The notes beneath the pieces were generated by a model, which saw nothing but the letters and a program-made list of their open reading frames with translations, was not told the DNA's origin and did no database searches. Positions 12,151-31,568 of a DNA stretch of 39,648 bases are shown here, in pieces. A program made the translations under genes and the position numbers. Source of the DNA: Candidatus Altimarinota bacterium (GTDB lineage Bacteria; Patescibacteriota; Gracilibacteria; UBA1369; UM-FILTER-53-11); contig JAGOUV010000005.1 in assembly GCA_018061065.1 (NCBI GenBank), positions 43,122 to 82,769 on the forward strand, read 5' to 3'. Every line of letters begins with the position of its first letter. Position 1 is the first letter of the stretch.

Positions 12151-13701
12151 CTATTTACTATTCTTCTTCTTGCGGCGATATAATCCCATGAGCAAGCTCG
12201 TTACTCCTGCGGCGAGCATTCCAGGACCTGTCTCGGGTAAGAATTTGCTGATGATCGAACCGCTGCTTTCATTGCCTGCATTGTCTTTTGTCGTGATTTT
12301 GAACGTATACCAACCTGTCTGAAGGTCCTGAATTTCTGCGGCGGTACTTGCAGCGCCTAATGATGATGCATGTCCAAAGTTCGACGTATTTTTGCCCACG
12401 CTCTGATACAATAACTGATCTGCTAAATCACGCTGCGTATTTGCACTTTCTTTCCAGCGCAACTCGAGAATACCTCTTGGTGCATTTTTTATATTTGCAA
12501 TAAGCTCGGTAATATTTTCTGGGGGAGTTGTGTCGCGTCCCGTTCCATCTACTTTTCCCGTTACTGTTCCACGAAGTCCCTCAATAGCAGTATTACCTTT
12601 TGCATCTGCGATATCACTCATCCATAGATCATAAACAATGCCCTGCATGGGGTCAGTTGTAATATAAAGCGTAGCGCCATCCGTACTCAAACTTACGTTC
12701 TTAACGGCAAGAGGTGCTTCATTATCATGATTTTTAACGGTGATGTGTGTAGTTGGATCCGTCGGCAATACAACCGGCTCGGAAAAAGTCACTGAAATGC
12801 GATCGTTGAAATCCGCAACTGATGCAGTGATCAAAGGTGGCTGTGTATCGTTGGCGCCACCTCCTGGAATATCAGTTCCTGGCGTTACAGTGGTTCCTGG
12901 TTTTTGTTTTGAGCTTCCCGTGAATGAACCAGTATCAGATGTTCCACTAATAACGGGATTATTGAAATAATCTTTTACTTCAATTCCTGCAGTTACTACA
13001 TATTCAGTTCCATCTTTTTGTGGAGCAGTAGTTAAAACAACCGTCTTGCCCGTGTCATCGCGTGTATCGATTTCTGCTTTTTGAACCGACAAGCGAGTTT
13101 TGTCCTCAGCCTCAATAACAAAGGCGCTCTCGGGATTTTGTTCAGGTAATTTTACTGGCTCAGAAAATTCTACGGTCACGGAAATTATATCTTCTGCGCT
13201 TACGTCTTCTACTTTTGGTGATTTTCCATCATCTTCAATAGAAGAAAGGCGCAGTCCCGTTTTAGGAGTAGTAGTTGCCTCGGGCGAATAGTATTCACTT
13301 TCATTTCCTGCTGCGTCAATTGCACTTACCGAAAAATAATATGCTTGGTTGTTTGTCAGATCTTTTATGCGATAGCTTGTGACATTGCCTACCGGAATAG
13401 AAGGCAAATCATAGCGAGGATTTTCTTCAGTCAGGGAATGAGTACCGCGGTGAACTTTGTAACCCACCACAGCTACATTGTCTGTTGCTGCTTTCCATTG
13501 AACTAAGACTTCGCCATCACCGGGCATTGCCTGTACTTCTTCTACATCTGACGGAACAATCGCATCCGCAGCGGCTACAAGCTCTTCACCTTGTGCACGT
13601 ACAATAGAAATGGAGCTCCCTGAGAACATGCTCGTCATGAGCACGCTCATTGCTACAAGTCCCAACATTCGATAGTTTTTTCGTTGTTTTTTGTTTCTCA
13701 T
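12151..13701 (-). CDS. LPXTG-anchored surface protein with fibronectin III and SbsA-type Ig-like domains
   Basis: 516 residues from ATG 13701 (MRNKKQRKNY), with a signal peptide (basic head, hydrophobic core, predicted cut near VRAQG). Domains in order: fibronectin type III (about 35-140), two Ig-like domains of the Big_5/SbsA type marked by VTVEFSEPVKLP and ISVTFSEPVVLP, a second FN3-like domain (TTPPENITEL...ELRWKES), then the sorting tail LPETGPGM, a hydrophobic span and RRKKKNSK at the C-terminus. The LPETG motif about 29 residues from the end is the classical sortase A substrate, implying covalent attachment to peptidoglycan. A TTG at 13749 in frame lies inside the promoter and is rejected. 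Likely a cell-surface adhesin or stalk protein; ligand unknown. Confidence 0.88.
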   Translation of the reverse strand: MRNKKQRKNYRMLGLVAMSVLMTSMFSGSSISIVRAQGEELVAAADAIVPSDVEEVQAMPGDGEVLVQWKAATDNVAVVGYKVHRGTHSLTEENPRYDLPSIPVGNVTSYRIKDLTNNQAYYFSVSAIDAAGNESEYYSPEATTTPKTGLRLSSIEDDGKSPKVEDVSAEDIISVTVEFSEPVKLPEQNPESAFVIEAEDKTRLSVQKAEIDTRDDTGKTVVLTTAPQKDGTEYVVTAGIEVKDYFNNPVISGTSDTGSFTGSSKQKPGTTVTPGTDIPGGGANDTQPPLITASVADFNDRISVTFSEPVVLPTDPTTHITVKNHDNEAPLAVKNVSLSTDGATLYITTDPMQGIVYDLWMSDIADAKGNTAIEGLRGTVTGKVDGTGRDTTPPENITELIANIKNAPRGILELRWKESANTQRDLADQLLYQSVGKNTSNFGHASSLGAASTAAEIQDLQTGWYTFKITTKDNAGNESSGSIISKFLPETGPGMLAAGVTSLLMGLYRRKKKNSK

Positions 13702-13721
13702 AAGCTTTTTGTTATCAAATA

Positions 13722-13749
13722 ATTGTATCACTGATTTGATCGAGTACAA
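13722..13749 (-). promoter_or_regulatory. Sigma70-type promoter of the LPXTG protein gene
   Basis: On the minus strand TTGTAC, a 16-base spacer and TACAAT precede the ATG at 13701 by 20 bases, leaving a short leader of about 14 bases. Unlike most promoters in the window this one has a recognisable -35. Confidence 0.5.
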
Positions 13750-13802: not shown

Positions 13803-15404
13803 TCAATAAACCTCCTGTAAGTAGCATTTTTTACAGAGGATCGTGAGGCCGCTATCGGGTTGATAGCCGGTATACATAAGCTCTGAGCATCTGCTGCACG
13901 GATATTCATAGATGGCGGGCATGGTACGGTTTGCTACGCGAGTGCGATGTCGACAGGCAAAACATTTCAGGGGTGGCGGTAAGTTGTGAGTTTTATAAAA
14001 TGCCAACTCTTGTTCAATAAACGCATAATTTTTTCCACAGCTTTCGCATATCAGGTGGTCAGATGTATGGTCGATCAGCGGTTCATCTTTCCAACGATAA
14101 CCGAGCGCGAGTGCCTGTTCTTTTTCCAGGGGGAAACAGTCCATCACGAGAGATTCATTGTAGGCGAGAGGAGCAACGTCTTGCGGGAAAAACTCTCCAT
14201 ATTCACCCGTTTTACGCATATGTTCTATGATTTTTGGCATCAGTAATTCGTAATCTTCTTTTGAATATTGTTTGTTTAAGATGCAGTATTTTTTTCGACG
14301 CACGCCCACGCATCCAAATAAATCACTCGAGCTGAAACATCCATCGCAGTAGGTAAGATTCTGGCAGTTGGTCCAACACATTGTGCAGAATTTGAGGTTG
14401 TAGACGTGGTCACCGCAGCTGCTCGATTCGTAGACGAGCTCGGCTTTATCCCCCCATGAGGTGTAGTCCATGGATGATTTAACGCCTAACGATACGCGGA
14501 AGCAGTAGGTGCAATCTTCTAGATCTTTTGAGTCGAAACAGTACCAGGCATTTTTTGAATTGAATAAATGATCGCCAAAACTATTTTCATTGTGCTCCTC
14601 TATGAGGTGTTGTTGTGGTTGAGTGGAGAAAAATTCCTCAGTTTTTTTCTTTAGTGCATCAATTCCTTGATGCGTATCTAACTTAAAATCCACCTTCATA
14701 TTTTCATAATCTTCTTTTGAATACTGCTTGTTGAAAATCAAATACTGGCCGCGACGAATATTGATACAGCCAATTGAGTCGGTAACGTTGTGGCAGTTTT
14801 TTAAAAAATAACTATCCTGGCAGCTCATGCAGTCTTGGGAGTAGAAGAGGCGATAGCACTTTTGGCAGTCGATGCACTCATAACAAACCTCGTCTTCGTA
14901 ACAGATACTGCAGTCGATGCAGTTCTGGCTGTGCTTGAGTAAGTTGGAGTAGTAGCAGTCTTCACAGTAGTCAGATTCCGCTAGCAGATAGCAGTTTTTT
15001 AGGTACGCGGTACAGGTATTGAACTCACTATTTTCTAACGTGCCGATGGTATTAAAGAGCGCCAGGTGTGGGACGGTATTTTTCAGCTCTTTAAACTGTT
15101 CAAAAAAAGGCCGATTGAAATCAAAGTCGCGTCCGTATGAAAGCGGATCCCATTGGTCAGACCACCAGACCTCCCCCTCGTAAACCGGAAAAGGAACTTC
15201 CGCAGCATATTGCGAGAGGATTTTTTTGCCCGAAAAACTACATGTTCTATAGTACGGTTTTTTCGTGTTGCGCTCATGTAAACGGCGAATAAGCCTGCAG
15301 TTGGGGCACTTGGTCGGCGCGGGTACCTGGATCTGGTCGTAGTAGGCACGGTCGCGGTCGGAGATGGTGAAATTTTGCCTGCAGACGGTACACGTTCGAT
15401 CCAT
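13803..15404 (-). CDS. Cysteine-rich protein with duplicated zinc-ribbon (zf-trcl-like) ends and a Cys-repeat middle
   Basis: 533 residues with about 40 cysteines. Residues 5-42 form a zinc ribbon (CTVC ... VPAPTKCPNCR), and a matching copy occurs at about 457-493 (CESCGKNYAFIEQELAFY ... PPPLKCFACR); both resemble the probable zinc-ribbon Pfam family zf-trcl. A third CxxC...CxxC ribbon ends the protein (YPCSRC ... ILCKKCY). Between them is a repetitive region of about 330 residues with CxxC pairs every 10-20 residues, suggesting a metal-binding solenoid, and a duplicated NKQYSKEDYE segment. No signal peptide or membrane span is seen, so it is probably cytosolic. Start ATG 15404 has an AAAGGA Shine-Dalgarno and a TATAAT 11 bases upstream. 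Function unknown. It is divergent from argS. Confidence 0.8.
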   Translation of the reverse strand: MDRTCTVCRQNFTISDRDRAYYDQIQVPAPTKCPNCRLIRRLHERNTKKPYYRTCSFSGKKILSQYAAEVPFPVYEGEVWWSDQWDPLSYGRDFDFNRPFFEQFKELKNTVPHLALFNTIGTLENSEFNTCTAYLKNCYLLAESDYCEDCYYSNLLKHSQNCIDCSICYEDEVCYECIDCQKCYRLFYSQDCMSCQDSYFLKNCHNVTDSIGCINIRRGQYLIFNKQYSKEDYENMKVDFKLDTHQGIDALKKKTEEFFSTQPQQHLIEEHNENSFGDHLFNSKNAWYCFDSKDLEDCTYCFRVSLGVKSSMDYTSWGDKAELVYESSSCGDHVYNLKFCTMCWTNCQNLTYCDGCFSSSDLFGCVGVRRKKYCILNKQYSKEDYELLMPKIIEHMRKTGEYGEFFPQDVAPLAYNESLVMDCFPLEKEQALALGYRWKDEPLIDHTSDHLICESCGKNYAFIEQELAFYKTHNLPPPLKCFACRHRTRVANRTMPAIYEYPCSRCSELMYTGYQPDSGLTILCKKCYLQEVY

Positions 15405-15450: not shown

Positions 15451-17169
15451 ATGAAGCTGTATATTCAGACCGTTCGTAAGGCGATGCTGGCCGCAGTAAA
15501 AAAGGCCGGATATAGTTACGAAAATGAGATTAAAGTTGAGTACCCATCCGAGGCGGCACATGGAGATTATTCCAGTCCCGTCGCGCTTGAGCTGGCCAAG
15601 AGAGAGGGCAAAAAGCCGCGTGAGGTTGCGGATGAGTTAGTGGCAGCTTTAGAAAAGCCGGAGGGCGTGGAGAAGATTGAGATCGCCGGGCCGGGATTTA
15701 TTAACTTCTTTTTTGCTGCTGATTTTTTGGCAAAATTTTCTGCGCAGGTTATTGCGGCTGGAGATGATTTTGGAAACAGTGAGGTGATGAAGGGGAAGAC
15801 TGTGGTCACCGATACCTCACATCCGAATGTGGCTAAGCCCATGGGAGTGCATCACTTACTCTCAACGATTATTGGAAATTCACTCAATCGGATTTTTAAA
15901 GCGGTTGGTTACAATTTAGTGCGCGATAATTATTTGGGAGATTGGGGGACGCAATTTGGAAAATTAATTTGGGCATATAAAAATTGGGGAGATGCGGAAG
16001 TGGTGAAAAAAGATCCGATTCCTGAGTTGTTAAAATTATATGTGCGTTTTCATGAAGAGGTTGAGCAGAAGCCGGAATTAGAAGATCTTGGTCGCGCTGA
16101 ATTTAAAAAATTAGAAGAGGGAGATAGTGAGAATAAAAAATTGTGGAGATGGATTGTCGATTTGAGTGTCCAGGTTTTTTATAAGACATGGAAACGTTTG
16201 GATGTTGAATTTGATCACATCAATGGTGAGAGTTTTTACGAAGATAAAATGCAGGAGATTATTGCGATGGGTATTGAGAAGGGGATTTTTGTGGAAGGTG
16301 AGCGTGGGGCATTGATTGCGCCATTTAATCATGAAAAATATCCACCAGCGATTATTAGAAAATCGGATGGGGCAACACTGTATGCGACACGCGACTTGGC
16401 GCGCATTTTGTATTGGGAGCGCACCTGGCATCCTGACTTGATGGTGAATGTAGTGGATGTGGCTCAGGAGATGTATTTCAAACAGTTATTTGAAGTTACT
16501 GGAATGTTGAATATCACCGATGCAAAAAATATTCACGTTGCATTTGGGCGCATGAGTTTTCCGGAAAAACGAATGAGTACGCGCAAAGGGAATATTATTT
16601 TGATGGATGAAGTTTTGGATGAGGCGGTGGAACGTGCTCATGAAATGGTGAAGGAGAAAAATCCAGATTTAAGTGATGAGCAGAAAAAAGATATCGCGCA
16701 GATGGTGGGAATTGGCGCGGTGAAGTACGCGATACTCTGCCAAAATCGCACGACGAATGTGACCTTTACTTGGGATAAAATGTTGAGCTTGGAAGGGAAC
16801 AGCGCGCCGTATTTGCAGTATGTTCATGCGCGCGGCTGCTCGATTTTGAGGAAGGGAGAAGCGGGGACTGAGAAGGCTACAGAAAAGACTACAACCTATA
16901 ATCTACCGTCTGAGTTGGCGTTAGCGCGATTACTTCCAAAACTTCCCGAGGTTGCGGTTCAGTCTGCCATGGATTTTAAGCCGAATTTACTAGCGAATTA
17001 TTTGTTTGAAGTGGCGAGTGCTTTCAACTCATTCTATGCGAGTGCGCCCGTACTTCAGGCAGAAAAAGAAGCCGAGCGAGATGCCCGGCTTCAATTAGTT
17101 CGTGCGACGACGGTGGTTTTGAGAAACGGCTTGCAGTTGCTTGGAATTCAAGCGCCTGAGGTCATGTAG
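15451..17169 (+). CDS. argS: Arginyl-tRNA synthetase
   Basis: Charges tRNA-Arg with arginine in the cytosol. The protein is 572 residues from ATG 15451 (MKLYIQTVRKAML). The N-terminal Add-1 domain (1-95) is followed by the class I signature HPNVAKPMGVHHL (124-136, equivalent of HIGH), the KMSKS-type loop RMSTRKGN, and a C-terminal anticodon-binding helical bundle ending in QAPEVM. Ahead of the ATG lies TACAAT with a nine-base gap. An in-frame start 29 codons upstream would run through the divergent gene's start and promoter and is rejected. Complete, no odd residues seen. Confidence 0.96.
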   Translation: MKLYIQTVRKAMLAAVKKAGYSYENEIKVEYPSEAAHGDYSSPVALELAKREGKKPREVADELVAALEKPEGVEKIEIAGPGFINFFFAADFLAKFSAQVIAAGDDFGNSEVMKGKTVVTDTSHPNVAKPMGVHHLLSTIIGNSLNRIFKAVGYNLVRDNYLGDWGTQFGKLIWAYKNWGDAEVVKKDPIPELLKLYVRFHEEVEQKPELEDLGRAEFKKLEEGDSENKKLWRWIVDLSVQVFYKTWKRLDVEFDHINGESFYEDKMQEIIAMGIEKGIFVEGERGALIAPFNHEKYPPAIIRKSDGATLYATRDLARILYWERTWHPDLMVNVVDVAQEMYFKQLFEVTGMLNITDAKNIHVAFGRMSFPEKRMSTRKGNIILMDEVLDEAVERAHEMVKEKNPDLSDEQKKDIAQMVGIGAVKYAILCQNRTTNVTFTWDKMLSLEGNSAPYLQYVHARGCSILRKGEAGTEKATEKTTTYNLPSELALARLLPKLPEVAVQSAMDFKPNLLANYLFEVASAFNSFYASAPVLQAEKEAERDARLQLVRATTVVLRNGLQLLGIQAPEVM

Positions 17170-26689: not shown

Positions 26690-26779
26690 TGGCGGAGAGG
26701 GAGGGGTTCGAACCCTCGATACCCTTGCGGGTATACCGCTTTTCGAGAGCGGCGCGTTCAACCACTCTGCCACCTCTCC
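26690..26779 (-). tRNA. tRNA-Ser (anticodon CGA)
   Basis: 90-base type II tRNA on the minus strand. Acceptor GGAGAGG pairs with CCTCTCC, the anticodon loop is CTCGAAA (anticodon CGA, codon UCG), a long variable arm (TACCCGCAAGGGTA) and GGTTCGAACCC T-arm are clear, and CCA is encoded. An extended -10 (TGTTAGAAT) lies upstream on the same strand. Confidence 0.95.
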
Positions 26780-26806
26780 ATTAACTAACGCGCACCTATT
26801 CTAACA

Positions 26807-26837
26807 GAAGTCTGCCGCCTACGCGGCGACAGACTTC
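26807..26837. repeat. Hairpin between tRNA-Ser and the bactofilin-like gene
   Basis: Arms GAAGTCTG and CAGACTTC enclose an inner CCGC/GCGG pair. There is no T-tract next to it on the minus strand, where the flanking genes lie. It may end transcription of the bactofilin-like gene imperfectly or separate it from the tRNA. Confidence 0.5.
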
Positions 26838-26866
26838 CTGAGCTGCTTTTTGCCTTATATGAGCCA

Positions 26867-28012
26867 CTATTTTCGCTGCATTACTATCTGCAAAGCTGCG
26901 CCGGTACCAGCCCAGACCGCCACAGCCGAGAGCGCCCAGCCCAATAGGGGAATAGCACAGATGATAACTACAATTGGCATACCTAATACTAATCCCCATG
27001 CTAAATGTGTTGTCTTGCCATGACGAAGTTTCAAAAGTATTTTTTGTCCTACGAGCATTGCAATATAAATGCGGCTCACAGCCACAGTGATACCGTAGAG
27101 CACCGCACCCACCAGCGCGAGTGGGATCCCCACAACAGTCATCATCAGAACAACAAATACGATAGGCGCAATAATCATTGATGCCGCACCCCAGAGAATA
27201 GATGATCCTGCATGTTTCTGAATCATCTCAAGCACCTCTGCCACTTTCTTTGGTCGTGCCCATATCATCGCCAATCCCAATACGATCAATGCAAAAATCG
27301 AATAGAGTTTCCATCCCGCCCACATTGCAATAAACATATTTCTCAAGCGTTTTCCCTCAGGTTCATCTCTTCCTTGAAGCGATGCGCGTTTTTCAATTCC
27401 ACCTTTCACTACACCATCGTCAATTTTTGCGTCGCGCTTACTTGCGTAGACTAATTTTCCTTTAATAAGAGCTGGTTTTGTTGCGGTAAAATCCTGAACT
27501 TCGGCTCGTACATCACGTTCAACTACGCCCTGAATAATAACACTCTGACCCGCCACGCTAAGATCTTTTTTAATGTTTCCCAATACTTCTAACCACTGAC
27601 CCGCAAAATGCACTTCTCCACGCACCACTGCTTTTTGTCCCAGTATAAATTTTTGTCCAAACATCATTACGTTGCGCTCCACACTTCCATTAATCGTCAA
27701 AAACTGCCCCGCACTGCGGACATTTCCATTTATATGACCGTCAATGGTAAGCGACTGACCTCCACAAATCACGTCACCATTTACGGTTCCAGTGATCGTC
27801 ACACTTGAGCCTGCACAAAAAACATCTCCGTTAATCACGCCATCCACACGCACATTTTGACCTGCAAAAAATCCTGTAGATTCAAGAGTTTCCGCAACGT
27901 TCACGAGTACATTTTCCTCGTTTCGTATGATATTTGCAGATGCACTTGCCGGCAGTAAAAATAGTACGGCTAAAGCGCTCACCACCATGAGTTGTTTTGT
28001 AAGATGTTTCAT
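26867..28012 (-). CDS. Bactofilin-like beta-helix protein with C-terminal membrane helices
   Basis: 381 residues from ATG 28012 (MKHLTKQLMVV). A signal peptide ends at ASASA (about 27). Residues 40-190 are a left-to-right series of short beta repeats of the polymer-forming cytoskeletal/DUF342-like type (GQNVRVDGVINGDVFCAGSS, and related copies with G-x-V-N-G-D-V). The last 170 residues hold four predicted membrane helices. The combination of an exported beta-helix and a polytopic tail is typical of a family annotated only as polymer-forming protein; function unknown. An upstream start at 28027 is less likely because TACTAT ends six bases before the 28012 ATG. Confidence 0.82.
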   Translation of the reverse strand: MKHLTKQLMVVSALAVLFLLPASASANIIRNEENVLVNVAETLESTGFFAGQNVRVDGVINGDVFCAGSSVTITGTVNGDVICGGQSLTIDGHINGNVRSAGQFLTINGSVERNVMMFGQKFILGQKAVVRGEVHFAGQWLEVLGNIKKDLSVAGQSVIIQGVVERDVRAEVQDFTATKPALIKGKLVYASKRDAKIDDGVVKGGIEKRASLQGRDEPEGKRLRNMFIAMWAGWKLYSIFALIVLGLAMIWARPKKVAEVLEMIQKHAGSSILWGAASMIIAPIVFVVLMMTVVGIPLALVGAVLYGITVAVSRIYIAMLVGQKILLKLRHGKTTHLAWGLVLGMPIVVIICAIPLLGWALSAVAVWAGTGAALQIVMQRK

Positions 28013-28018
28013 GTCGAT

Positions 28019-28024
28019 ATAGTA
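28019..28024 (-). promoter_or_regulatory. -10 box of the bactofilin-like gene, leaderless spacing
   Basis: TACTAT on the minus strand, then ATCGAC, then ATG at 28012. A GGAGG lies just ahead of the box, too far from 28012 to act as its ribosome binding site but 9 bases before the alternative start at 28027 is not possible either, since it falls inside the longer frame's first codons. Confidence 0.45.
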
Positions 28025-28030
28025 CACCTC

Positions 28031-28450
28031 CTACTTCATAAGCGGCAGTCCGACTTCTTCATTCATTGCACGCTCTATGGTGCCGTTATAAACCGTCAGC
28101 GCGATTTCGCATGAAGCCCCCACGATAAGCTGCTTTATATGCCCGCCAAACGTCTGCATTTCCTGATTTGAGAAGACTCCGTGAGCATGAATAACTGGCG
28201 CACCGTCCTTTAGGGCAATATTTCCCGTGATGCTGACTATTTCCAGATCTTCACTAAAGCTTCTGTCGATATAGGTCTTTTTTTGCAGCTCGTAGTATCC
28301 AAGAGTTAGTTTTTGAGTGGCTCCAATTGCAGTAAATGAGGCTGCGGTGATGGTATGTTCTTTTGCAAAAGCCACTACGCTCGTCATAAAATCCTCGCCG
28401 AGAGTGAGGCGCAGTACGTAGTGTTGGTTGTCGCGAAGAATGATGTTCAT
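28031..28450 (-). CDS. PPC domain protein (DUF296 family)
   Basis: 139 residues. The PPC/DUF296 fold is marked by LGEDFMTSVVAFAKEHTI, ITAASFTAIGA and IHAHGVFSNQEMQTFGGHIK, whose histidines match the conserved metal-binding-like triad (HAHG plus H). In plants the domain is joined to AT-hooks; bacterial copies stand alone as trimers with no settled function. A TAGAAT ends six bases before the ATG. Divergent from the CHAP-domain gene by 34 bases. Confidence 0.9.
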   Translation of the reverse strand: MNIILRDNQHYVLRLTLGEDFMTSVVAFAKEHTITAASFTAIGATQKLTLGYYELQKKTYIDRSFSEDLEIVSITGNIALKDGAPVIHAHGVFSNQEMQTFGGHIKQLIVGASCEIALTVYNGTIERAMNEEVGLPLMK

Positions 28451-28456
28451 GGCTCT

Positions 28457-28462
28457 ATTCTA
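28457..28462 (-). promoter_or_regulatory. -10 box of the PPC-domain gene, leaderless spacing
   Basis: TAGAAT on the minus strand, then AGAGCC, then ATG at 28450. It lies back to back with the -10 box of the divergent gene, only ten bases away. Confidence 0.55.
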
Positions 28463-28472
28463 CCAGATATGG

Positions 28473-28478
28473 TATAAT
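28473..28478 (+). promoter_or_regulatory. -10 box of the CHAP-domain gene, leaderless spacing
   Basis: TATAAT preceded by GG, then TACCCG, then ATG at 28485. It fixes the start at 28485 over an in-frame upstream start at 28428 that lies inside the divergent gene. Confidence 0.6.
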
Positions 28479-28484
28479 TACCCG

Positions 28485-29339
28485 ATGGCTGAAATTGTCA
28501 AAATAACGCCTCCCGAGGAGGGAAAAGAACCTTCAAAACCTTTGGAATCGGCTAAGCCTATACCTGGAGAAGTTCTTGCAAAACGAAAAGAATTTGAGCA
28601 ACTCGGTCGTAAACAACAAGCAGAAATTGTGAAGAATCTGATACGTCAGGTGGACGAAGAATCTAATGTTCCGCGAGATAAAGTAGCCGCTGCGTTAAAA
28701 GATGAAAATAAAGCTGATCGATTTGAAACGTTAGCCCGAACCATAGGCACCATGGCCAGTTTAATTGGAAATGTTGCTGATATTATGAGTCGCTTGTTTG
28801 GGGAGGTGGGTGATAATAATGAAGAAGATTACAAGCCAGAACAAATTGCGGCAGTAAAAAAAGAAATCTCAGAACGAAAATTCGACACTCCTAATCGCGA
28901 GAAAATAGTTAACATAGCTCAAAGTATGCTCGGTTCGCCGAATTTTAGGGGCGAAGAGGTGGATGGTGGAAATTTAGCTTGTGCGCAAGTAGTCAGTAGA
29001 ATTTTAAGACTGAGTGGCTGTATAAATAAAGAGCTTCTAGGTGTTACTGCTACGCGGGCTGAATTACGAAAACAGAATTGGACAGAACATCAGGGGCCTC
29101 CACGTCCAGGTGATGTGGTTATCTGGAATCGCACACAAAAAACTGAAAATGACGGCAATGTAAAGCTAGGCTATCCGCACATTGGAATCGTAGTTGGATC
29201 TAACACGGCGATTTCTAATAGTTCTGGTGCACGTATGCCACGCATGCATAATATGGGGTACAAAAAAGATAATGGATATTGGAATAGACGTGGTATCGAC
29301 ACCTTTATGAGCCCACCAGAACAGCAAGCAGTTTCCTAA
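28485..29339 (+). CDS. Putative CHAP-domain amidohydrolase with an uncharacterised N-terminal region
   Basis: 284 residues from ATG 28485 (MAEIVKITPPEEG). Residues 135-275 look like a CHAP (cysteine, histidine-dependent amidohydrolase/peptidase) domain: a nucleophile candidate Cys166 in GGNLACAQVVSRIL, RPGDVVIWNRT, and His232 in YPHIGIVVGSN, with polar residues after it. The first 130 residues are charged and partly coiled, with one hydrophobic stretch (about 86-103) and no signal peptide. CHAP domains cleave peptidoglycan stem peptides or glutathionyl compounds; secretion is not obvious here, so a lysin-like release or intracellular role is possible. Convergent with msrA, two bases apart. 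Confidence 0.72.
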   Translation: MAEIVKITPPEEGKEPSKPLESAKPIPGEVLAKRKEFEQLGRKQQAEIVKNLIRQVDEESNVPRDKVAAALKDENKADRFETLARTIGTMASLIGNVADIMSRLFGEVGDNNEEDYKPEQIAAVKKEISERKFDTPNREKIVNIAQSMLGSPNFRGEEVDGGNLACAQVVSRILRLSGCINKELLGVTATRAELRKQNWTEHQGPPRPGDVVIWNRTQKTENDGNVKLGYPHIGIVVGSNTAISNSSGARMPRMHNMGYKKDNGYWNRRGIDTFMSPPEQQAVS

Positions 29340-29341
29340 AT

Positions 29342-29812
29342 TCAAATGTGGCATGATGCCGCCCCGCGTTTGGCCAAATACTTTTGGTGATACTCTTCTG
29401 CTGACCAAAATGTTGGTGCGGTAACGATTTCAGTGACGATCGGATTCATGAAGCGTCCCGCTTTTTCCAGCTCTGCCTTTGACTCTTCGGCGATTTTTTT
29501 CTGTTCGGGTGAGTAGTAAAAAATCACTGAACGATACTGTGAGCCCACATCCGGCCCCTGTTGGTGGTACGTTGTTGGATTGTGAGACTTCCAAAAAATA
29601 TTTAGCAATTTTTCATAAGAAATTTCCTTGGGATCAAATTTGATTTGAAGAGCCTCGGCATGGCCGGTTGTACCACTGCAGACAGTTTCGTAGGTGGGAT
29701 TCTCGGTCTTGCCTCCCATATAGCCCACGGTGGTTTCTTTTACCCCCGCGAGTGTGCGGAATGTCTCTTCCACTCCCCAGAAACACCCTGCGGCAAATGC
29801 TGCGATTTCCAT
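29342..29812 (-). CDS. msrA: Peptide-methionine (S)-S-oxide reductase
   Basis: 156 residues. Repairs oxidised methionine in proteins by a thioredoxin-coupled reaction. The catalytic motif AAGCFWGVEETF places Cys10 at the active site; GYMGGKTENPTYETVCSGTTGHAE and YHQQGPDVGSQYRSVIFY complete the family pattern. The C-terminal GAASCHI carries a candidate resolving cysteine. The start ATG is six bases after TATACT. No MsrB domain is fused or adjacent. Confidence 0.96.
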   Translation of the reverse strand: MEIAAFAAGCFWGVEETFRTLAGVKETTVGYMGGKTENPTYETVCSGTTGHAEALQIKFDPKEISYEKLLNIFWKSHNPTTYHQQGPDVGSQYRSVIFYYSPEQKKIAEESKAELEKAGRFMNPIVTEIVTAPTFWSAEEYHQKYLAKRGAASCHI

Positions 29813-29818
29813 AGGCTA

Positions 29819-29824
29819 AGTATA
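29819..29824 (-). promoter_or_regulatory. -10 box of msrA, leaderless spacing
   Basis: TATACT on the minus strand, then TAGCCT, then ATG at 29812. Confidence 0.55.
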
Positions 29825-29876
29825 GCGGAATAGAAGCGTTGACGGAACATCAGACAGTTATATATATTGTCTCACT

Positions 29877-30656
29877 ATGGGAAATGAACTAAATGAAAAT
29901 GCCGAGGGTTATGTAGGGTACTCACTACGCTTGAATATTACCCGGGAAGGAGGAGTGAGTTTTGTGGATAACTCAGGTGCGGTATTTGAGGTGATCGATA
30001 GTGAATCGCTTCTTTTTATGGAAAAATCGTCAGGGCATTTTTTTGAAATGCATGCAGAAGATGCGGATGTATTTAGTACCTATCTCAATAAAGCTGCGCA
30101 GAATTCGAATGAACGAATGCGAAGCGTCAATGTGCGACTCCGTGAACTTTCTAATCAATCAGCCGAGCCTGCAGAAGAATCCCGTCCTTCATTTTTAAAT
30201 GTCGAAGCGCAAGGCCGTATAGTGCTGGATGTTCTGGATGGCAAAACAGATTGTTTCGATGTTCCAAACATAGTTATCGACGAGCATGATGCAGATCATT
30301 ATCATGTTGATGCACCAACCCGTCCGCGCATTGCTGAAGTAGTACAAACGGGAAGGGCCCATCACGCTGCCGGTGTGGAAGCTCGTGCTTCATTGCGTGG
30401 GGAAACGCATATCGTGAGATTGGAAGATCTAAAGGAAGTGGACGGCAGTGATCTAGTGGACGACAGTATTTTTGAGCCAATGGCTATTGGCGGTTTGTCT
30501 GCGCGACTACCGCTGGGTAAGAAAGTAGGAAGATATGCAATCCCCATGCTTTTAGCGGCGAGCGGTATTGCGGCGGTTGGATTAACGCGAAGATGTAATG
30601 AAGAAGCTCCCCGTCCCCCGCAGGAACTGAGACCGGTGCTTTTGCACGTTGAATAA
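29877..30656 (+). CDS. Hypothetical tail-anchored protein
   Basis: 259 residues with no recognised family. The first 220 residues are soluble and acidic (frequent Asp/Glu), with two beta-like stretches at the N-terminus (GYSLRLNITREGGVSFVD). A single hydrophobic segment near the end (IPMLLAASGIAAVGLT) followed by RRCNEEAPRPP suggests a C-terminal membrane anchor with the bulk on the cytoplasmic side, as no signal peptide is present. A TATTGT hexamer ends six bases before the ATG. The AHSA1 gene follows 27 bases downstream. Confidence 0.65.
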   Translation: MGNELNENAEGYVGYSLRLNITREGGVSFVDNSGAVFEVIDSESLLFMEKSSGHFFEMHAEDADVFSTYLNKAAQNSNERMRSVNVRLRELSNQSAEPAEESRPSFLNVEAQGRIVLDVLDGKTDCFDVPNIVIDEHDADHYHVDAPTRPRIAEVVQTGRAHHAAGVEARASLRGETHIVRLEDLKEVDGSDLVDDSIFEPMAIGGLSARLPLGKKVGRYAIPMLLAASGIAAVGLTRRCNEEAPRPPQELRPVLLHVE

Positions 30657-30671
30657 GCCTCGTATAGAGCG

Positions 30672-30677
30672 CATAAT
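30672..30677 (+). promoter_or_regulatory. -10 box of the AHSA1 gene at 30684, leaderless spacing
   Basis: CATAAT, then GAGGGT, then ATG at 30684. GAGGG here could also act as a weak Shine-Dalgarno from the upstream transcript, though the spacing is short. Confidence 0.4.
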
Positions 30678-30683
30678 GAGGGT

Positions 30684-31082
30684 ATGAAGACCGTCAGGCA
30701 GAGATACAGCATCAACGCTCCTGTAGAGAAGGTCTGGAGGGCATTGGTGAGTCCTAAGCTTATTGACCAGTGGGGTGGAGGTCCCGCAAAAATGAGTGCG
30801 CGTGTCGACGCAAAGTTTTCGCTGTGGGGTGGAGATATTTACGGAACAAATACTGAGGTGCAGCCGGAGGTAAAGTTGGTGCAGCAATGGTATGCCGGTA
30901 ACTGGGAAGAGCCCTCGATGGTTTGTTTTTCGTTGAGCGAAAAGGTTACTAAAAAAGGAAAAACAACCCTCGTTGTATTAGTTCACAAGAATATTCCCGA
31001 TGAAGAGGTGCAGGGGATTCGAGACGGCTGGAAAGAATATTACATGGAGCCGCTCAAGGCGTTTGTGGAGGATCAGGTGTAA
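30684..31082 (+). CDS. SRPBCC/AHSA1-domain protein
   Basis: 132 residues of the START-like AHSA1 fold: opening RYSINAPVEKVWRALVSPKLIDQWGGG, then GGDIYGTNTEV, VQQWYAGNWEEPS and a C-terminal GIRDGWKEYYMEPLKAF helix that closes the hydrophobic pocket. Members bind small lipophilic ligands or assist chaperones; role here unknown. A second, different AHSA1 protein is at 35236-35706. Followed by a strong intrinsic terminator. Confidence 0.9.
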   Translation: MKTVRQRYSINAPVEKVWRALVSPKLIDQWGGGPAKMSARVDAKFSLWGGDIYGTNTEVQPEVKLVQQWYAGNWEEPSMVCFSLSEKVTKKGKTTLVVLVHKNIPDEEVQGIRDGWKEYYMEPLKAFVEDQV

Positions 31083-31092
31083 AAATAACATC

Positions 31093-31131
31093 AAAAAGGG
31101 CTCTCTTACTAAGATAAGAGGGCTCTTTTTT
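31093..31131 (+). terminator. Intrinsic terminator after the AHSA1 gene
   Basis: A 16-pair stem with two G-U wobbles (left arm AAAAAGGGCTCTCTTA, right arm TAAGAGGGCTCTTTTT), six-base loop and a T-run. The A-run on the left means it could also work for the opposite strand. It separates the forward gene from the minus-strand tRNA-Ser. Confidence 0.85.
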
Positions 31132-31140
31132 AATTGCTTC

Positions 31141-31234
31141 TGGCGGAGAGGGGGAGATTCGAACTCCCGCGGGCACTTAACGTACCCCTAAGGGTTTAGC
31201 AAACCCTCCTCTTCAACCACTTGAGTACCTCTCC
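31141..31234 (-). tRNA. tRNA-Ser (anticodon GCU)
   Basis: 94-base type II tRNA on the minus strand. Acceptor GGAGAGG pairs with CCTCTCC, anticodon loop TTGCTAA gives GCU (codons AGC/AGU), the variable arm is long, the T-arm reads GAGTTCGAATCTC, and CCA is encoded. A TATAAA lies four bases upstream of the 5' end. Confidence 0.95.
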
Positions 31235-31478
31235 TTACTTTATAAGCTCGCCTTCGTTCGGTCGCGCTAATTGCGCGCTCCCTCACTCGGCTCGCGGCGC
31301 CACCGTGTGGCGCCCGGGGTTCTCGTGTGGCTTTCCCCTGCCTATTCCCGCACTCAGTTTCCTTGGTTGAAGCCTGCCCACTATACCTAAATACGTATTT
31401 TACGTCTACCTTGTTCTCATTCAATTGTAGTTGTATACTTCGCCTGCTATTTTAGCCTAGCATAAGCTTAAACAGTAA
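31235..31478. other. GC-rich noncoding island between divergent tRNA-Ser genes
   Basis: About 245 bases without a convincing gene. The part from 31246 to 31330 is much richer in G+C than its surroundings and full of short inverted repeats, including GGCGCCAC-CGT-GTGGCGCC (31296-31314). A 78-codon minus-strand reading frame runs through it but overlaps the tRNA. The half nearer the plus-strand tRNA is AT-rich and contains TATACT at 31433, a possible promoter. Confidence 0.5.
31296..31314. repeat. Perfect 8-bp hairpin in the GC-rich island
   Basis: GGCGCCAC and GTGGCGCC separated by CGT. No T-tract follows on either strand. Confidence 0.6.
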
Positions 31479-31568
31479 GGAGGGATGCGTGAGTGGTTGA
31501 AACGGATAGTCTTGAAAACTATTAGGCTCGCAAGAGTCTCGAGGGTTCGAATCCCTCTCCCTCCTCCA
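31479..31568 (+). tRNA. tRNA-Ser (anticodon UGA)
   Basis: 90-base type II tRNA on the plus strand. Acceptor GGAGGGA pairs with TCCCTCC, anticodon loop CTTGAAA gives UGA (codon UCA and wobble partners), long variable arm, T-arm GAGGGTTCGAATCCCTC, CCA encoded. The discriminator base reads T rather than the G usual for serine tRNAs. Confidence 0.95.

Follow-up and report, generated by a model that had tools for sequence, protein, structure and literature searches.

A cysteine-rich protein family of Patescibacteria with putative zinc ends, predicted beta-solenoids and a recurrent VirD4/TrwB-type ATPase neighbour

What does a protein do that carries 40 Cys among its 533 residues (7.5%), when other ORFs of the same window and of neighbouring loci mostly have 0-3%? 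The question was raised by the gene P0001 in a stretch of 39,648 nucleotides from a Candidatus Altimarinota bacterium (assembly GCA_018061065.1, contig JAGOUV010000005.1, positions 43,122 to 82,769), and this whole stretch is called the window here. A first-pass annotation of the letters had given the Cys count correctly. Full-length homologues (over residues 1-533) were present in many Patescibacteria, and P0001 can be taken as a real protein because a 38% identical full-length relative (L019, 5001-6674) stays open through 18 in-frame TGA codons (code 25). That gene is open only when its 18 TGA codons are read as glycine, and this recoded Gracilibacteria-type genome retains the family. A hydropathy scan of P0001 found no TM segment and no hydrophobic signal segment, and the protein is probably cytosolic, in line with its earlier description as cytosolic-looking. 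P0001 is solitary in the window, with the argS-like gene on one side and the fn3/Big_5 gene on the other (Table 1); the former is not part of the system described below, and we found no evidence that the latter belongs to it. Elsewhere in the window, three tRNA-Ser genes (cga, gct, tga) lie within 5 kb (26690-31568).

Table 1 Coordinates of P0001, its parts and its neighbours in the window
Feature	Position	Strand	Description
Downstream neighbour	12151..13749	-	Secreted fn3/Big_5 protein, LPETG-type C-terminal end, same strand as P0001
P0001 CDS	13803..15404	-	533 aa A-B-B'-A' protein; start ATG 15404, stop 13803
Module A' CxxC-x17-CxxC	13824..13898	-	Residues 503-527; four Cys conserved in 92-96%
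Module A' zinc ribbon	13947..14051	-	Residues 452-486 (C453, C456, C481, C484); best zf_Tbcl stretch 450-489
NKQYSKEDYE copy 2 and conserved cap	14085..14276	-	Residues 377-440; copy 2 is 377-386
Module B', solenoid 2	14277..14597	-	Residues 270-376; period 3 weaker than in solenoid 1
NKQYSKEDYE copy 1	14703..14732	-	Residues 225-234, 3' of solenoid 1; helix in predicted model
Module B, solenoid 1	14757..15044	-	Residues 121-216; turns of about 12 residues, one residue in three inward
Module A second part	15159..15257	-	Residues 50-82; degenerate CxxC-x17-CxxC copy, only C55 remaining
Module A zinc ribbon, treble-clef	15294..15395	-	Residues 4-37 (C5, C8, C33, C36); second zf_Tbcl stretch
Divergent neighbour	15451..17169	+	argS-like arginyl-tRNA synthetase, assigned by reading

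Profile comparison with hhalign matched the N module (1-112) to the C module (445-533) with P 99.7 and E 9e-27 (4-82 on 452-530), and one half of the core (100-245) to the other (262-405) with P 99.9 and E 5e-34 (112-240 on 263-392); control pairs of unrelated parts gave P < 1, except 1-112 against 100-245, which have residues 100-112 in common. These alignments show that the duplication spans the whole of P0001, as two nested duplications in the order A-B-B'-A'. The first-pass annotation was right that the ends are duplicated, but a duplication of the ends only was too narrow a reading. The repeated NKQYSKEDYE element that it had noticed is present in two exact copies.

Module A consists of a treble-clef ribbon and a CxxC-x17-CxxC domain. 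The Pfam profile zf_Tbcl (PF13451, cut-off 24 bits) matched P0001 in two stretches, the better one with E 1e-7 and 32.2 bits, which together with the alignment of A and A' confirmed the proposal of matching zinc ribbons at both ends; the C ribbon is real, although it had been placed a few residues too late, at 457-493 (Cys at 453-484). The N ribbon reads C5-x2-C8 ... PAPTKC33-PN-C36-R, and its Cys are conserved in 94-98% of 52 homologues. The C ribbon reads C453-x2-C456 ... PPPLKC481-FA-C484-R; among the same homologues C453 is conserved in 96%, and C456, C481 and C484 in 46-60% only. A third Cys4 motif stands at the C-terminus (C503, C506, then 17 residues, C524, C527). Its N-terminal counterpart can still be aligned (40-112 vs 490-533, P 98.4), and the Cys of this copy are gone in most members and retained in some paralogues. 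From the Cys conservation in the ribbons and the last domain we infer zinc occupancy, with three sites likely per P0001 chain and fewer in some relatives. The TIGR04272 model gave no match to P0001 in an NCBIfam search up to E 10, although the spacing CxxC-x17-CxxC is the same; stand-alone relatives match it at 49-54 bits (cut-off 36). Module A' corresponds to the pair of domains known from the small zf_Tbcl and TIGR04272 zinc proteins, whereas the present family has two copies of it flanking a double solenoid.

Conservation in the family is found in the zinc ends and in the cap that follows solenoid 2, and the outer faces of the solenoids are variable. The cap has the lowest entropy in the central part (N377, Y385, G403, N416, W438) and a pLDDT > 90. 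The ends are basic (mean charge +4.1 and +4.7) and the solenoids acidic (-6.2 and -5.3).

The Cys of solenoid 1 follow a period of three, with a mean autocorrelation of 0.263 at multiples of 3 against -0.008 for shuffled sequences (0/5000 shuffles as high) and an additional peak at lag 12; P0001 taken by itself surpasses every one of the 5000 shuffles. The structure of module B, predicted alone from 56 aligned B and B' modules, had a pLDDT of 85.5 overall and 91-98 over residues 123-212, so that period and model both agree with the solenoid that had been proposed between the ribbons. In this model DSSP gave E--E--E, with single bridges at every third residue. The Tenebrio molitor antifreeze protein 1l1i aligned to it end to end (84/84 residues on 96 model residues, Z 5.8, rmsd 3.3), where a structural Z < 8 means likeness of arrangement and not relationship. 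In comparisons with wider solenoids among PDB chains, about 125 model residues aligned to about 220 of theirs. With the left-handed hexapeptide helix of gamma-carbonic anhydrases (18 residues per turn, Z ~6), 90 model residues spanned 139 target residues, which puts the turns at about 12 residues. The prediction thus shows module B as a narrow beta-solenoid of about 12 residues per turn with the geometry of the beetle antifreeze protein, which has 12-residue turns with every third residue inward in an in-out-out pattern (PMC8038014).

A pentapeptide repeat of period 5 was absent from P0001 (Cys autocorrelation at lag 5 -0.15, z -14), TBCC/RP2/CAP-like and pentapeptide solenoids were middling structural matches only, and LIM-domain matches were explained by Cys spacing. 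Foldseek against the PDB and viral models gave no match below E 0.001. The middle region, searched against Pfam, NCBIfam, PADLOC and PDB sequences, returned nothing besides the ribbons, and the insect antifreeze profile PF02420 matched neither P0001 (E up to 10) nor eight core-only paralogues (E up to 1). To our knowledge, the 12-residue beta-solenoid occurs in beetle antifreeze proteins only. A cold or structural scaffold of the insect antifreeze type is nevertheless extremely improbable here: the 12-residue, every-third-inward geometry and the Cys-rich core are shared with the Tenebrio-type proteins (PF02420; 1EZG, 1L1I), but P0001 has no regular TxT ice-binding face, the family has no Pfam match of this kind, no signal peptide and no alternating Cys-Ser-Cys-Ala order, and it has two solenoids, a conserved cap and zinc ends. 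The TrmB and ATPase partners described below also make no sense for an antifreeze protein.

Whether the solenoid Cys bind metal was judged from 82 homologues, in which the inward positions held C in 47%, S in 19%, L in 12% and V in 6%, followed by I, G, T and A. Cys facing each other across one turn (lag 6) were rarer together than expected (z -4.3), hydrophobic residues stood beside Ser as volume compensation (z +12), and Cys in stacked turns (lag 12) were coupled above expectation (z +6.7) while Ser and hydrophobic pairs were not; the row shuffles behind these statistics leave the relatedness of the homologues in. Since inward Cys are replaceable, core volume is compensated and Cys pairs across a turn are fewer, this analysis favours core packing, with most solenoid Cys as ladder residues that Ser, Leu or Val can replace. 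Because of this interchange, the earlier suggestion that CxxC pairs of the solenoid provide many metal sites is not supported, and metal sites are supported only for the ribbons. Some coupling remains, and we keep a metal or disulfide ladder along the stacked Cys, with a chemistry of its own, as a possibility. A metal store, in which such a ladder (some 26 Cys that point inward or nearly so) holds Zn, Cu(I) or Fe-S on the axis of the solenoid, would make use of the stacked pairs (i, i+12), but single Cys are freely swapped for S, L, V, I or G, opposing Cys avoid each other, and there is no metal transporter or metal regulator among the conserved neighbours, which makes it quite improbable. Among the roles suggested at first, the metal store is the least likely one; the protein may instead be a scaffold or have a nucleic-acid link.

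The family is large, Patescibacteria-centred and multicopy. In a class sample it was found in 62 of 116 genomes, and 21 of the 192 genomes of a phylum-wide sample gave a match, several of them to the stand-alone zinc module only; such zinc-module relatives of 90-130 aa are present in many Patescibacteria. The window genome (1.30 Mb) has 10 family loci, four full length and six core-only, and in a genome that decodes TGA as an amino acid 47 stretches match, corresponding to about 30 family genes. Copies stand head to tail in several loci (L059-L061, L011, L018). Genomes of Patescibacteria are tiny, yet some devote 15 to 50 kb to diverged copies of this one protein. In G291, a genome of 1.3 Mb, most of about 30 family genes are packed into 50 kb of contig 4 (48,791-99,621), with full-length and shorter (~370 aa) types interspersed.

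In the family tree, 43 of 47 cherries join different genomes: the paralogues are old and mostly common to different genera; recent paralogue expansion was rejected, as only 4 of 47 cherries lie within one genome. P0001 groups (support 0.999) with array members of G188 and G135 (L058, L059) that are directly linked to the ATPase. Because its orthologues lie inside arrays, the window copy is a stray, and the tree shows its descent from an array-resident group. Elsewhere in the window genome, family genes are accompanied by TrmB (C26, C5) or by the ATPase (C14).

Core-only copies were also seen, by reading, in apparent housekeeping operons, between pheS and pheT (L055, 1499-2464) and between purC and purE (L053, 8005-8979), and, in two related genomes, behind a SecD/F-like gene (L054, 7693-8649; L068, 6642-7604). 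In L051 (7262-9826) two hydrophobic-looking proteins that resemble each other (271 and 275 aa, neither matched by Pfam) enclose a core-only copy, and a divergent TrmB stands upstream.

Comparison of gene neighbours in other genomes, as the first-pass annotation had suggested, gave two recurrent partners, a TrmB regulator and a VirD4/TrwB-type ATPase, which bears out its view of P0001 as a component of an undescribed system. In ten family-positive genomes, 15 of 48 TrmB genes lay within 1.5 kb of a family gene, where 1.06 were expected (P 6e-14), and 22 of 26 near TrmB genes were divergent. The PF01978 winged helix was found in six neighbours, five above the cut-off and one (L063) just below it (24.6 vs 25.6 bits); the genome-wide matches were above the cut-off.

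The neighbour ATPase has 740-780 aa, Walker A and B motifs, and matches above the Pfam cut-offs to the T4SS-DNA_transf and TrwB profiles (PF02534, PF10412); its sole solved relative is TrwB. Its superfamily is near-universal in Patescibacteria (189/192 genomes), and the dedicated version was defined by E up to 1e-180. This version was present in 51 of the 116 class genomes, namely in 50 of 62 family-positive but only 1 of 54 family-negative ones (odds ratio 221, Fisher 4e-20, an optimistic P as the genomes are related, though presence and loss vary within families). Among the 12 family-positive genomes below the threshold, eight still have a diverged ATPase no more than 2 kb from a family gene (9 genes, ~1 expected). 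The ATPase is usually the next gene: of 29 ATPase genes, 24 had a family gene at most 1.5 kb away, and 23 of these were codirectional; the 29 genes come from loci fetched around family or ATPase matches, that is, from a selected set. Four family-positive genomes had no adjacent ATPase, and in G268 (230 contigs) the ATPase was present and no family gene was detected. A hydropathy scan of 27 family-linked copies for an N-terminal TM anchor found no window above 1.6, except one marginal value of 1.67 just after Walker A in two copies. In the loci read we noticed no T4SS genes; since pilin is found in 116 of 116 genomes, co-occurrence with T4SS tells nothing.

In the explanation that we consider best, the family supplies the many copies of a genetic system with three parts: a divergent TrmB regulator, a tandem array of A-B-B'-A' genes and a VirD4/TrwB-type ATPase without TM helices. 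Each family protein would be an adaptor or cargo unit of this ATPase; the zinc ends and the cap may attach to the motor or to nucleic acid, the variable, acidic outer surfaces of the solenoids may bind differing partners, and the ATPase would spend ATP on loading, moving or exporting whatever molecule is bound. The conserved basic ends and cap, the variable acidic solenoids and the dedicated motor fit such a role, which, unlike the well-supported architecture and genetic association, we put forward tentatively, as somewhat short of an even chance. In its wider form, TrmB-regulated arrays (up to ~30 copies) of zinc-ended, antifreeze-like beta-solenoids could act as exchangeable units, for recognition or as cargo, of a dedicated soluble VirD4-type motor that handles DNA or proteins, possibly in host contact; this too is a candidate reading and not yet a probable one. 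Several findings speak against the adaptor role: the window copy lacks both TrmB and ATPase as neighbours, the ATPase of the window genome stands beside a core-only copy, and the four genomes and G268 mentioned above are exceptions to the association. The core-only copies among housekeeping genes have no zinc ends, so that docking by these ends leaves them unexplained, and the missing TM segment counts against a coupling protein of the canonical type.

The adjacency of a VirD4-type ATPase and arrays of diverged paralogues would also suit secreted effectors, with the ATPase delivering the family proteins through the T4SS of Patescibacteria into a host or neighbour cell and the array as effector repertoire. 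A C-terminal E-V-Y end is frequent (e.g. KEVY in 31/82), and Patescibacteria have T4SS and thousands of VirD4 homologues (PMC12102498). However, the ATPase has no TM segment, P0001 has no TM or hydrophobic signal segment, the paralogues are old and mostly common to genera instead of fast-changing, and the four zinc-ligand Cys at the extreme C-terminus are nearly invariant, so we regard delivery as effectors as unlikely.

Other recurrent neighbours were passengers only: ORF6N, S24 peptidase, PIN and a protein of 717-759 aa in three genomes. The last of these lies between TrmB and ATPase (L077, 7079-9244; L085, 6029-8182; L086, 10982-13261), and the two copies scanned had no Pfam match; ORF6N-type genes stand inside or beside arrays in five loci (L010, L079, L080, L081, L087). 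The passengers ORF6N, S24 (LexA-like) and PIN give the arrays an island-like look, which speaks for genome defence or DNA handling. Here a HerA/VirD4-like motor would work with an array of recognition proteins: their basic zinc ends would hold nucleic acid, and the faces of their solenoids would sense ligands or mimic them. The ATPase has weak matches to mad8 (3e-12) and HerA, the solenoids are acidic, and pentapeptide proteins (DNA mimics) are among the structural matches. Against this, no nuclease or other effector recurs in family loci, the PADLOC anti-phage models did not match P0001 up to E 0.01, and members are vertically retained; we consider a defence or DNA-handling function unlikely too.

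Among known motors, the neighbour ATPase is closest to the type IV coupling proteins TrwB/VirD4. It resembles them in profile and in Walker A/B, but differs in having no TM segment and no T4SS genes noticed around it, and in being accompanied by family arrays. In Legionella, DotL is part of a coupling complex with the zinc adaptor DotN, a single small protein. The likeness, a motor ATPase with a zinc-binding adaptor, may serve as a lead only; DotN is not in an array. Among thousands of VirD4 homologues in Patescibacteria, only 148 of 5,713 are near virB4, and the present system offers a possible role for some of these orphans (PMC12102498). The dedicated, co-inherited motor ATPase is the first handle on the function of the family.

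The single pieces are known. For the family, its A-B-B'-A' architecture and the TrmB-array-ATPase system, we found no description in the libraries or in the open-access PMC literature searched, and the earlier statement that no function had been described still stands. Bacterial proteins without signal peptides, widely multiplied, would be a new context for the 12-residue beta-solenoid. The Cys-rich proteins of Ca. Peribacter riflensis also come from related bacteria, lie in a gene cluster and contain ~7% Cys, but they average 1,655 aa and mostly have signal peptides (PMC4736985), whereas the family proteins have ~550 aa and none. A phage origin of the family was rejected, since full-length relatives were not found in phages or IMG/VR; one IMG/VR fragment (L069), possibly chimeric, matches over ~30 residues at the end of a contig. 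Solenoids without visible zinc ends occur in phages: phrog_15341 and a gene of Vibrio phage 1.238 match module B at 7e-13 and 6e-4. The Vibrio phage gene (L070, 3986-4360), also matched by a core-only paralogue of 318 aa, is small and module B-like and was labelled 'insect antifreeze protein' by its depositors.
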